This document shows, in pieces, positions 45,005 to 48,541 of a DNA stretch of 51,458 nucleotides. The position numbers were made by a program, and so were the translations under genes. The stretch's first letter is position 1; every line of letters begins with the position of its first letter. The DNA is from an uncultured Alphaproteobacteria bacterium (GTDB taxonomy: Bacteria; Pseudomonadota; Alphaproteobacteria; Rhodobacterales; Rhodobacteraceae), in the NCBI GenBank assembly GCA_902524655.1, contig CABZEG010000011.1, positions 1 through 51,458 of the forward strand, given 5' to 3'. The notes below the pieces were generated by a model. The model worked only from the letters and a program-made list of their open reading frames with translations. It had not been told where the DNA came from and searched no databases.

Positions 45005-46699
45005 TCAAAAATCTGTCTGAGGCTTTGAAGCGCGTCGCTCGGGAAAAACATTCATTAATGGTCCAGTTCTCTCAATTAATTTTTTGACCATAGGTACGAC
45101 AGTACAGCTTGCATATCTACATGGCTCACGCAAAAGATTATTCTCTGGCTCATCTAAAAAAGCTGCAATAACGAACTTAGGCTTTTCCAAAGGAAATAAT
45201 CCTACGAAATTTGCTACCACCTTATCTTTTTCATAGCCCCTTTTATCTAAAGAAATTTTTTCAGCAGTTCCTGTTTTTCCACCGATACGATAATATTTAC
45301 TTCCCAAAATTCTTGCAGTCCCTCTTTGATCCGTGACGACGGCTTCCAGTAATTTAAGTATTTCATCAGAGGTTGATTGTTTCAATACTCTAGAATCCAA
45401 ATTGCCCTTATGGTTATTTTTCAAAATTGTTGGCTCCACATTAAATCCTCCATTACCTAATATGGCGTAGGCTTTAGCTAGATGTAATAGTGAAACTGAT
45501 ATTCCATATCCATATGAAACGGTTGCTAAAGTTATATCTCGCCATTTTTTTGGCACAATAGGTTGAGTTAGACTTGCTTCCCTAACTTCTAAGTGCACCG
45601 GCTCCATAAGTCCCAGAGTAGATAAAATTTCCTTTAATCCCTTCTCTCCAACTATAAGAGCGAGTCTCGCGGCGCCAACATTTGATGATCTCACAATTAT
45701 TTCATAAATAGAGCTCTTGGCATTGAAGCTGTATTTATCTTCAATTTTTTTTGAGTTAATTTTAAACGCTTTTGTATCAATAAGGGAATCAACAGTGAAT
45801 AAACCCTTCTCTATACCTTGGGCAACTGAGAATATCTTAAAAGTTGATCCCATCTCATAAACCCCTTGAACAACTCGATTAAAATAAATGCTGTTATCTT
45901 CATTTTTTTCTAGTTCGCCTTTTTCTTTATTTGCATCAAAGCCTGGAGAGGATGCAAGTGCAATTATTTCTCCATTATGTATGTTCATTATAACAACACC
46001 TCCGGCTTTTGCGCTCATCCTTTTTTGCCATTCTTTTAAAACATTTTCCACTTCTGCTTGCACTGGTAAGTCTAAAGACAAAGCAATTGTCTCGTTCTTT
46101 CTATGGGATAATTTTTGTTTCACCAATTCCTTATCAAAAGCTTTCTCAGCGCCAGAGACTCCCGATATATTGACGTAATTGACATCGAACTCATTTACCT
46201 TGGTAAAGCCAATTATGTGAGATGCCAAGGTTCCATAAGGATAAAAACGGTACTCTCGTTCACCAAAATAAATTCCAGGTTGACCCAAATTAAAAAGTGC
46301 CTTTTCCTGTTTCGGTGATACCAGACTTTTCAACCAGAAAAATTTTCTGCCGTCGTTCAATTTGTTTAGTAACACCGATTCATTTAGCTCGGGAAATATA
46401 TTTTTTATTTTTTTGGCAACTAGTGCTTTTTCCTGGACCTCTTCAGGACGAATATAAACAGAAGCTCCTTCCAAGTTTGTTGCTAGAATATATCCATTCC
46501 TGTCGGAAATATCTGATCTAGAGTTTATGTTTTCTAATCCAGAGTAACGTATATTCTTTTGATTTTCTTTTGATGCTAAAAAAGCTATCTTTATGCTTAT
46601 CAACAAAAAGCCAACCATGACGAAAAGACTGAATAGAATTAGTCTCGCTCTAGTTCTTGGAAACTCGGCGAAATTTGTTTTTTTATTACTAATCACCAT
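45005..46699 (-). CDS. ftsI: Peptidoglycan D,D-transpeptidase FtsI (penicillin-binding protein 3)
   Basis: A 564-residue class B penicillin-binding protein that crosslinks septal peptidoglycan. A single membrane helix follows a short basic N-terminus (about residues 19-43). The dimerisation domain comes next, and the transpeptidase domain has all three motifs: STFK (serine near 285), SSN (near 338) and KTGTAE (lysine near 475). ATG 46699 lies inside the last codons of ftsL; a TTG two codons further upstream is also possible. Partner of FtsW. Confidence 0.96.
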   Translation of the reverse strand: MVISNKKTNFAEFPRTRARLILFSLFVMVGFLLISIKIAFLASKENQKNIRYSGLENINSRSDISDRNGYILATNLEGASVYIRPEEVQEKALVAKKIKNIFPELNESVLLNKLNDGRKFFWLKSLVSPKQEKALFNLGQPGIYFGEREYRFYPYGTLASHIIGFTKVNEFDVNYVNISGVSGAEKAFDKELVKQKLSHRKNETIALSLDLPVQAEVENVLKEWQKRMSAKAGGVVIMNIHNGEIIALASSPGFDANKEKGELEKNEDNSIYFNRVVQGVYEMGSTFKIFSVAQGIEKGLFTVDSLIDTKAFKINSKKIEDKYSFNAKSSIYEIIVRSSNVGAARLALIVGEKGLKEILSTLGLMEPVHLEVREASLTQPIVPKKWRDITLATVSYGYGISVSLLHLAKAYAILGNGGFNVEPTILKNNHKGNLDSRVLKQSTSDEILKLLEAVVTDQRGTARILGSKYYRIGGKTGTAEKISLDKRGYEKDKVVANFVGLFPLEKPKFVIAAFLDEPENNLLREPCRYASCTVVPMVKKLIERTGPLMNVFPERRASKPQTDF

Positions 46700-47042
46700 G
46701 GTCAATTTCAGTCAGACTTTTACCTGCCAATTCTGTATGAATCTTTTCATTAGATTGATCCCAAAATATTTCTGAAAACAAAACAAAATCATCAGGGCTG
46801 ATCGGATTTAATTTCAGCTCCAAATAAAAATACTTAACCAATTTTCTTAAACGATCTGGACTATTTAAATGAGCCCATTCTGCATTTAAGATTTTGATCT
46901 CCTTGTTTGCTAAAAGAATAGATTTTTCAAGTTGTCTTACTCTTTGATAAGCCGCACGACTCTCATAATTTATTTTGTAAGCCCACAATCCCAACATGAA
47001 AGTGCTTACTACAAGAAATATAAAAAGCGAAAATTTTAACAC
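46689..47042 (-). CDS. ftsL: FtsL-like cell division protein
   Basis: A 117-residue bitopic protein: an N-terminal hydrophobic helix (about 3-22), then a heptad-like region (AYQRVRQLEKSILLANKEIKILNAEW) that should form a coiled coil with FtsB, then the LNSPDRLRKLVKYFYLELKLNPISPDD stretch seen in alphaproteobacterial FtsL. Sequence conservation of FtsL is low; the call rests on topology and on its place between rsmH and ftsI. GTG start one base after the rsmH stop. No ftsB is in the window. Confidence 0.88.
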   Translation of the reverse strand: MLKFSLFIFLVVSTFMLGLWAYKINYESRAAYQRVRQLEKSILLANKEIKILNAEWAHLNSPDRLRKLVKYFYLELKLNPISPDDFVLFSEIFWDQSNEKIHTELAGKSLTEIDHGD

Positions 47043-47043
47043 G

Positions 47044-48021
47044 TCATATCCCTAACTCAACCTCTGGAAATTCTATTTTTGCCAAAACTCCAGATGGGCT
47101 ATCTGAAACTTTTTTATAAACCCTTAGTTTTGCAGATCTTGATCTTTTATTTTTCTCAATCTCATCAACTGCAGCAATTACCGGTTTTTTATTTATAGGG
47201 ATAAGGGATGGATTAACTCTAGAGGTTGCTGGACTATACCTATTGGTTGGTGATCCCTTTCCTGACATTATTTTTCCAAAATCCTTAACGATTCTGTCCT
47301 CAAGGCTATGAAAAGTCACCACCGCGATAATTCCGCCTTTTTTGACCTTTTTCTCAGCAAATACTAAAGCTTTGCATAGGTCCTTTAATTCGTTATTAAC
47401 TGCGATCCTGATTGCCTGAAAAGTTTTTGTTGCAGGATCTTTTTTAAAATTTTTTGGAACTAAAGCTCTTATTATCTCTGCTAACTCTAGAGTGGTATTT
47501 ATTTTTCTTTTTTTTCTTTCTCTAACAATTCTATTTGCAATTTTTCGTGCTTTTCTCTCTTGTCCATAAAAAAAAATCAAATCCGCTAAAGTTGCTTCTG
47601 AACATAGATTGATTATCTCAGAAGCAGTTGGTCCTGGCTGATTCCCCATCCTCATATCAAGAGGACCACTTTCCTTGAATGAAAATCCTCTCAAAGGGTT
47701 GTCCAAATGCATGGATGAGACGCCAAGATCTAAAACAATCCCATAGATATCATCTCTGCTGGCAATTTCTTCATTTTTTTCCATATCAGCAAAGCTTTGA
47801 TTATAATACTTTATCATATCACCATATACATTTTGTATTCCTTTAAGAAAAACCTTCGTAGTAGGATCCTTATCAATTGCTAAAACTTTGCAAGCACCAC
47901 TTTGAAGCAAAGCTTTACTGTAACCACCAGCCCCAAAAGTACCATCAACCCAACAGCCGGTAATAGGAGTAGCCAAGCTTATAAAATCCTTTAGTAAAAC
48001 TGGTTCATGTATTTGCTCTAT
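47044..48021 (-). CDS. rsmH: 16S rRNA (cytosine-1402-N4)-methyltransferase, apparent non-AUG start
   Basis: About 325 residues of the MraW/RsmH family, which methylates C1402 in the ribosomal P site. WVDGTFGAGGYSKALL is the SAM-binding motif, GIVLDLGVSSMHLDNPLRGFSF the catalytic region, and GGIIAVVTFHSLEDRIVKDF a conserved block near the C-terminus. The first ATG/GTG/TTG in frame is TTG 47976, but the family's N-terminal HxPVLL motif is present upstream as HEPVLLKDFI, in frame with no stop. A GAGGAG ribosome site at 48031-48036 is followed nine bases later by ATA (48021), which I take as the start; ATT at 48030 is the other option. If TTG 47976 is used, a conserved strand would be lost. Confidence 0.92.
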   Translation of the reverse strand: MEQIHEPVLLKDFISLATPITGCWVDGTFGAGGYSKALLQSGACKVLAIDKDPTTKVFLKGIQNVYGDMIKYYNQSFADMEKNEEIASRDDIYGIVLDLGVSSMHLDNPLRGFSFKESGPLDMRMGNQPGPTASEIINLCSEATLADLIFFYGQERKARKIANRIVRERKKRKINTTLELAEIIRALVPKNFKKDPATKTFQAIRIAVNNELKDLCKALVFAEKKVKKGGIIAVVTFHSLEDRIVKDFGKIMSGKGSPTNRYSPATSRVNPSLIPINKKPVIAAVDEIEKNKRSRSAKLRVYKKVSDSPSGVLAKIEFPEVELGI

Positions 48022-48043
48022 TTTACTAATCTCCTCAAAATGA

Positions 48044-48541
48044 TTAATCTTGCAACTGATCTAGTTTCAAGAAAGGATTTTCATTTTCTGATAAAGACTT
48101 GAAAGATACGTCCAATTCAGCTACTTCTTTTTGATATTTTTTTGGTTCCCATATTTGAAACTTTTCGCCCATACCAGCAAATATTGCTTCGTCTTGAATA
48201 CCAATTATTTCTTTGAGCCGGGGAGATAACACAATTCTTCCTGTCTCATCAAGCTGCATATATGTAGATTGAGTGTTAATAAATCGTTCAAGCATTTCTC
48301 TATCTCTCGAAAACCTTGGTAGTTTACTTATTAGGTTATCAACTTTTGTTATTGAGGTAATTGTATAACCCTCTAAACAATTACCTCTTACGCCACCATA
48401 GACAACTACAAAGTTTGGATAGGAACTTCCACTAAAGTCAGGATCACCGTCTTCGAGAACTCGGCGAAAGGCGGCAGGAACTGAGACTCGCCCTTTTGCA
48501 TCTACCTTGTGTAATGACTCGCCTCTAAATCGTTTAATCAA
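48044..48541 (-). CDS. mraZ: Transcriptional regulator MraZ
   Basis: A 165-residue protein with two AbrB/SpoVT-like halves: HKVDAKGRVSVPAAFRRVLED and LDETGRIVLSPRLKEII. MraZ is a ring-shaped DNA-binding protein that represses its own operon, the division and cell-wall cluster, by binding spaced TGGG-like repeats. TTG start at 48541, six bases after a GGGAGA site. First gene of the cluster. The upstream leader (48542-48737) contains repeat and dyad structure described separately. Confidence 0.95.
   Translation of the reverse strand: MIKRFRGESLHKVDAKGRVSVPAAFRRVLEDGDPDFSGSSYPNFVVVYGGVRGNCLEGYTITSITKVDNLISKLPRFSRDREMLERFINTQSTYMQLDETGRIVLSPRLKEIIGIQDEAIFAGMGEKFQIWEPKKYQKEVAELDVSFKSLSENENPFLKLDQLQD

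Follow-up and report, generated by a model that had tools for sequence, protein, structure and literature searches.

Conserved weak non-AUG start codons on regulated genes are already known. IF3 is reported to repress non-canonical starts and thereby to control its own gene (PMC5472188). In Staphylococcus aureus, AUA start codons have been reported for infC, ccpN and citZ; non-AUG reporters in this organism gave ~10% of the AUG level in poor medium, and the ccpN AUA gave at most 30% in rich medium (PMC13009471).

Start-codon choice has also been connected with the N4-methyl mark on C1402 of 16S rRNA, the product of RsmH (MraW). The original E. coli result on this mark is reportedly that of Kimura and Suzuki in 2010. 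E. coli lacking N4-methylation at C1402 shows more non-AUG initiation (PMC7379855, PMC6821322, PMC7600485). The non-AUG codon concerned in E. coli is AUU, and a preprint describes initiation at GUG and UUG as impaired in the mutant (PMC13317604). rsmH is conserved in nearly all bacteria, and its deletion in the laboratory is described as mild (PMC5053481, PMC13317604). A limited literature search for a non-AUG start of rsmH (mraW) found none by title or abstract among the matches listed. Here we report that, judging from comparative sequence evidence, rsmH of one bacterial genus is very probably translated from AUA (48021 in our window), which would be chosen by a Shine-Dalgarno (SD) sequence 9 nt upstream.

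The window, i.e., the whole stretch of 51,458 nucleotides analyzed, is contig C11 of G000, a draft genome of 1.77 Mb in 72 contigs with 71% completeness; in a plasmid collection, no near match was found. The product of the gene at issue matches the NCBIfam equivalog TIGR00006 with 284.5 bits (cut-off 154.3) and Pfam PF01795 with 288.5 bits, and it has PDB sequence matches to 1wg8, 3tka (RsmH) and 1m6y (MraW). Its placement is as expected, with mraZ (173 bits against a cut-off of 162 for its equivalog) upstream and a penicillin-binding (ftsI-like) gene and murE downstream. By these matches, the gene is identified as that of RsmH, the 16S rRNA C1402 N4-methyltransferase. The gene that follows it is named ftsL by position only; a Pfam search with it gave zero matches at E 0.001. 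The features of this region are collected in Table 1.

Table 1. Features of the rsmH region, in window coordinates
Feature	Position	Strand	Remarks
Proposed AUA start codon of rsmH	48019..48021	-	Aligned ATA in 15/17; SD spacing 9 nt
Shine-Dalgarno GAGGAG of rsmH	48031..48036	-	9 nt before ATA 48021
rsmH CDS from AUA, 325 residues	47044..48021	-	TIGR00006, PF01795 and PDB sequence matches
HEPVLL N-terminal motif, residues 5-10	47992..48009	-	5' of first canonical start codon
First in-frame canonical codon, TTG, residue 16, rejected as start	47974..47976	-	3' of invariant motif
mraZ, start TTG, upstream neighbor in division cluster	48044..48541	-	NF001476 equivalog
Gene in ftsL position, GTG start	46689..47042	-	Between rsmH and ftsI-like gene

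rsmH is encoded on the minus strand, where its frame reads ATT (48030) AGT AAA ATA (48021) GAG CAA ATA CAT GAA CCA GTT TTA CTA and continues AAG GAT TTT ATA AGC TTG (47976). An earlier, sequence-only reading of this DNA had claimed that the HxPVLL motif is encoded upstream of the first usual start codon, and a script indeed places the first canonical codon at residue 16. A script count also bore out that ATG, GTG and TTG are absent between the upstream stop and the motif, with zero such codons among the 17 open codons 5' of the HxPVLL His. The frame is open back across the mraZ junction and GAGGAG (48036-48031) lies nine nt before ATA 48021 and abuts ATT 48030, both as described earlier. An ATG in another frame does stop after five codons, although it begins at 48008 and not, as had been given, at 48009. 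Stop-free stretches of 17 codons without ATG, GTG or TTG are common by chance (2764 of 6133 sampled in the window); the unusual point is not the gap itself but that it spans the conserved N-terminus of RsmH. mRNA folding near the start was nothing out of the ordinary (z -1.12, -0.60 and 0.14).

We searched 22 genomes of the genus, drafts of 30 to 90 contigs, and found an rsmH match in 17; the remaining five are drafts with a completeness of 58-72%. A 16S gene match was found in 0 of the 22, missing 16S genes being a frequent gap in metagenome assemblies. In fifteen relatives, RsmH is 79-82% identical to the window protein, and these together with the window form the set of 16 referred to below as close species. 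The seventeenth genome, G009, stands outside this set: its RsmH is just 54% identical to the window protein despite being filed in the same genus.

When the relatives were compared for the same codon and ribosome site, the aligned first codon of rsmH proved to be ATA in 15 of the 17 genes (the window counted), TAA in G018 and AAA in G009. In all 15 ATA species, the ATA lies 9 nt past the last GGAG or GGGG. ATG, GTG or TTG at the aligned codon was found in none of the 17 genes, TTG standing one codon further on in 11 of the 16 close species. In the rsmH tree, several deeper supports of which are only 77-83, ATA occurs on every main branch of the close group, including the first-branching G001. 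Around it, codon 4 is GAA in nine close species, AAA in four, ATA in two and GCA in one; codon -3 is ATT in 11, GTT in two, and ATA, GTA or GAT in one each; codon -4 is GAG in 14 of the 16. Third bases in conserved four-fold columns of rsmH are invariant in 3 of 53 cases. Of the 14 columns with isoleucine in all 16 species, three have ATA throughout, and ATA can persist for other reasons; its conservation by itself is suggestive and not proof. That a sequencing or assembly error made a canonical start into ATA might be suspected of a window taken from a draft of 72 contigs and 71% completeness. The chance of this is next to nil, because ATA stands at the same site in 15 separate genomes and an indel does not explain 15 separate assemblies, unless one artefact is common to them all.

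Three other codons in the same frame might serve as the start, i.e., AUU 48030, the second ATA at 48012, or TTG 47976 with a shorter RsmH, and we consider it very improbable that any of them does. The sequence-only reading had left AUA and AUU side by side; AUA is supported by its conservation and constant SD spacing, whereas AUU 48030 was rejected because the SD abuts it directly and the codon is less conserved (the ATT count at codon -3 given above). ATA 48012 is common to the window and G018, but it is found in just 2 of the 16 species, and the SD is 18 nt away. A program-made list of open reading frames uses TTG 47976, the first canonical codon; the codon at this residue is TTA in 14 of the 16 close species. 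We aligned 19 RsmH proteins, namely those of the 16 close species (one of which is the window), of G009 and of two family members. H5, V8, L9 and L10 do not vary in any of the 19; as all four precede residue 16, initiation at TTG 47976 would yield a protein without this conserved piece. Gene calling restricted to ATG, GTG and TTG would trim the motif in the same way. The kind of observation that would speak for a start other than ATA 48021 is exemplified by a protein beginning within HEPVLLKDFISL.

A further possibility is that frameshifting or read-through from mraZ yields RsmH as an MraZ extension, with no need for a start of its own. Just 22 nt separate the mraZ stop (48044) from ATA (48021), and in the window the rsmH frame is open over the junction. 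Across the relatives, however, the SD-ATA spacing is constant whereas the mraZ stop differs in frame and distance: it lies in the rsmH frame in 13 of the 16 species, nine of them with an adjoining second stop, TAG; the window, G001 and G018 have it in a different frame. Since the frame of the stop varies, no single frameshift or read-through fits, and such an extension would leave the SD unexplained, which makes this explanation extremely unlikely.

Spacing from the SD was calibrated on G000/G001 ortholog pairs in which a single canonical codon is shared in the vicinity of the conserved block. This sample of 289 genes, in which overlapping open reading frames are retained and one gene may count in both genomes, starts with ATG in 223 cases, TTG in 47 and GTG in 19. 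Among the 80 canonical starts with GGAG within 22 nt, the spacing is 6-8 in 52, 9 in five, 10 in five and 12 in one. ATA at a spacing of 9 is therefore acceptable, if not favored (5/80), and TTG at 12 is rare (1/80).

These figures bear on the most obvious competitor of ATA, namely initiation at a TTG right after it, with ATA merely the last untranslated triplet. TTG is a common start here, as the 47 of 289 genes attest. It is codon 2 of rsmH in 11 of the 16 close species, the others having TTA (G011, G014 and G005), GAG (the window) or TCA (G010). Twelve of the 15 ATA species have a canonical codon nearby: in ten it is a TTG at codon 2, and in G014 and G005 a TTG that overlaps the SD five codons before ATA, so that a TTG start is possible in these species. 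In the other three, i.e., the window, G011 and G010, there is no in-frame ATG, GTG or TTG from the stop to the motif, and with GAG at codon 2 this alternative is inapplicable to the window. In the rsmH tree, the species with a codon 2 other than TTG fall into two clades, supported at 82 and 100; as codon 2 varies there while ATA stays, codon 2 has lost any start function it might have had. A TTG start would also have to work at the rare spacing of 12 nt from GGAG. We therefore regard initiation at this TTG as unlikely and AUA as the start.

The two genes without ATA are instructive in different ways. In G018, an indel puts TAA in place of ATA, followed by TTG CGA ATA CAT. This TTG, which is likely the start in G018, comes after AAAGGA and appears, by our reckoning, to sit at the same spacing as ATA does elsewhere; thus, where ATA is lost, a canonical codon is found at about the same place. 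G009, in which a GGAG or GGGG was looked for within 24 nt of aligned codon 1 and not found, carries two TTGs, which lie 10 and 11 codons upstream of that position. The G018 gene can be cited in favor of initiation at the TTG after ATA; G009, without ATA and with upstream TTGs only, counts against the AUA reading.

As a control outside the genus, we assembled 93 rsmH loci, of which 84 were readable and nine unreadable. Thirteen came from family or class genomes and 80 from titled contigs; the latter are the best 80 of at least 592, all at most 47% identical and thus no genus members. Nearer records may be missing among them, and at least three of the 80 carry titles of other phyla. ATG, GTG or TTG lies within 60 codons 5' of the motif in 84 of 84 readable loci (ATG in 77, only GTG or TTG in seven), a weak control at this distance because such codons also arise by chance; the nearest canonical codon lies within 20 codons in 82 of 84. 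As far as examined, the ATA start of rsmH appears to be a feature of this genus.

We further asked how general AUA starts are, in a survey of 1.21 Mb of G000 (the window included) against 0.87 Mb of G001. The 543 reciprocal best pairs were reduced to 426 by removal of overlaps, and after exclusion of 15 edge-touching and 14 non-coding-looking pairs, 397 were tested. In 370 pairs both genomes had a canonical start no later than the conserved block; in six only one genome did, and in 21 neither. Inspection by eye of these 27 flagged pairs found a usable ATG, GTG or TTG slightly further on in 24. Two were left without a fitting canonical start, rsmH (G000 has zero canonical codons, G001 a TTG as codon 2) and an HAD phosphatase-like gene. 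The third pair, C2:23682-24050 (L156:3682-4050), encodes a protein that may start either at ATT or at a later GTG; it is conserved in G001, and Pfam and NCBIfam searches gave no match to it. Coding-type substitutions precede its first GTG, near an ATT after GAGG, a possible AUU start. Of the 397 pairs, 176 have an SD-supported canonical start in one genome or both, with ATA opposite it in 0 of 176; the other 221 have no such start. With two clear cases in 397 pairs and none opposite in 176, AUA starts appear to be rare and not a habit in the genus.

The phosphatase-like gene (PNKP-phosphatase-like; G000 C17:32129-32590, L246:12129-12590) matches PF25109 with 99.6 bits and was found in 15 of the 22 genomes, with the N-terminus included at 13 loci. 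These loci have ATA (11), ATG (G018) or TTG (G021) as the aligned first codon. In G000 the first canonical codon falls after the DxDGT motif, and in G020 an in-frame TAA lies three codons 5' of ATA. Sequence comparison makes this gene a likely second AUA start in the genus, and the interchange of ATA, ATG and TTG at one site is the behavior of a start codon, which strengthens the AUA reading of rsmH. infC was matched in 13 of the 22 genomes, 12 of them read (L123 was unreadable): AAGGAG is followed at 6 nt by the apparent start codon, which is ATC in ten and ATA in two, so the classic infC arrangement is kept in the genus. G018 has canonical codons at both ATA genes (TTG in rsmH, ATG in the phosphatase-like gene), yet its infC has ATA. 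A gene acyl-CoA-ligase-like by look has ATG in G000 (C9:26234, plus strand) and ATA in G001 (C10:17084, minus strand), with a further ATG a few codons past the ATA in G001.

Two neighbors in function or position help to place the rsmH start. At all 18 loci of rsmI, which was matched in 18 of the 22 genomes, an ATG stands no later than the conserved block, and non-AUG starts thus do not govern the C1402 marks as a whole; in the sequences compared, the odd start among the two C1402 methyltransferase genes is limited to rsmH. For mraZ, the aligned start (48539-48541 in the window) is TTG at all 12 genus loci read, four of the 16 loci being unread, and G011 has an ATG two codons before this TTG. 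With TTG on mraZ and ATA on rsmH, the first two genes of the cluster are mostly without ATG.

The AUA start may be real and still neutral, i.e., a low-GC genus may tolerate an occasional AUA without any regulation, an alternative that concerns function and not the start codon. The ATA of the phosphatase-like gene fits such tolerance, as does that of the G001 acyl-CoA-ligase-like gene, which stands opposite an ATG in G000 and is followed by a later ATG. Against it are the rarity of AUA starts (27 of 397 pairs flagged, with two clear cases and one open) and their absence opposite the 176 SD-supported canonical starts. A special initiator tRNA was rejected as well: all 27 matches, which come from 25 of the 41 genomes across the class, share the initiator-tRNA stem TCAGG. 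The stem is thus no peculiarity of the genus, which also counts against neutral tolerance. A code change with AUA read as methionine was judged unlikely given the presence of three CAT tRNA genes, which we take to be those of initiator Met, elongator Met and Ile2. We give neutrality a substantial chance, somewhat short of even; that a weak codon has been kept throughout the genus points to selection without proving it.

A feedback of the infC kind may be inferred, because IF3 and the RsmH C1402 mark are both reported to disfavor non-AUG starts. The ordinary initiator tRNA would decode the AUA at 48021 as formyl-methionine, and this codon would keep rsmH translation low. With too little RsmH or IF3, rsmH translation would rise, and with too much it would fall; under-methylated 30S subunits would preferentially translate rsmH. 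Genes for IF3 and RsmI are present in the genus, and a dependence of the rsmH start on IF3 is plausible, infC being present and itself having a non-AUG start codon. The sequence-only reading had raised IF3 but made no mention of the reported restraint of non-AUG initiation by RsmH. That RsmH sets its own level in this way, its mark rejecting non-AUG codons while its own gene starts with AUA, is a tentative proposal that we consider possible but rather doubtful.

If the proposal is true, rsmH would be the second fidelity gene after infC to be wired via its own start codon, in this case through rRNA modification. The product of rsmH is reported to restrain non-AUG initiation, and a conserved AUA on its gene points to a simple and testable feedback loop; the rsmH start might serve as a natural reporter of the methylation state of the ribosome.

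One close parallel is infC (AUU, AUC or AUA). Like infC, rsmH is an initiation-fidelity gene with an SD and, in all likelihood, a non-AUG start against which RsmH itself would be expected to act. Unlike the infC product, RsmH works via an rRNA methyl mark and not by binding each initiation complex; any feedback would therefore be slow. Autoregulation is reported for infC (PMC5472188), whereas for rsmH we infer it. The S. aureus ccpN and citZ AUA starts and the cvfC1 AUU start offer a second parallel: an SD directs initiation to AUA there, as it would in rsmH, and the ccpN start is called conserved (PMC13009471). Those genes are not translation-fidelity genes, and their starts were supported by ribosome profiling and reporters (PMC13009471), whereas the case for rsmH is drawn from sequence comparison. 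Streptomyces sigR, with an IF3-repressed GTC start, likewise combines a conserved non-canonical start missed by annotation with low expression; it differs in having GTC and not ATA, and its start was demonstrated via start-codon changes and infC mutants (PMC5472188). E. coli pcnB has a non-AUG start, AUU, that is likewise reported to limit translation, with another codon and on another gene (cited in PMC13009471). What rsmH would add to these systems is that the gene product itself is reported to be an enzyme of start-codon fidelity.
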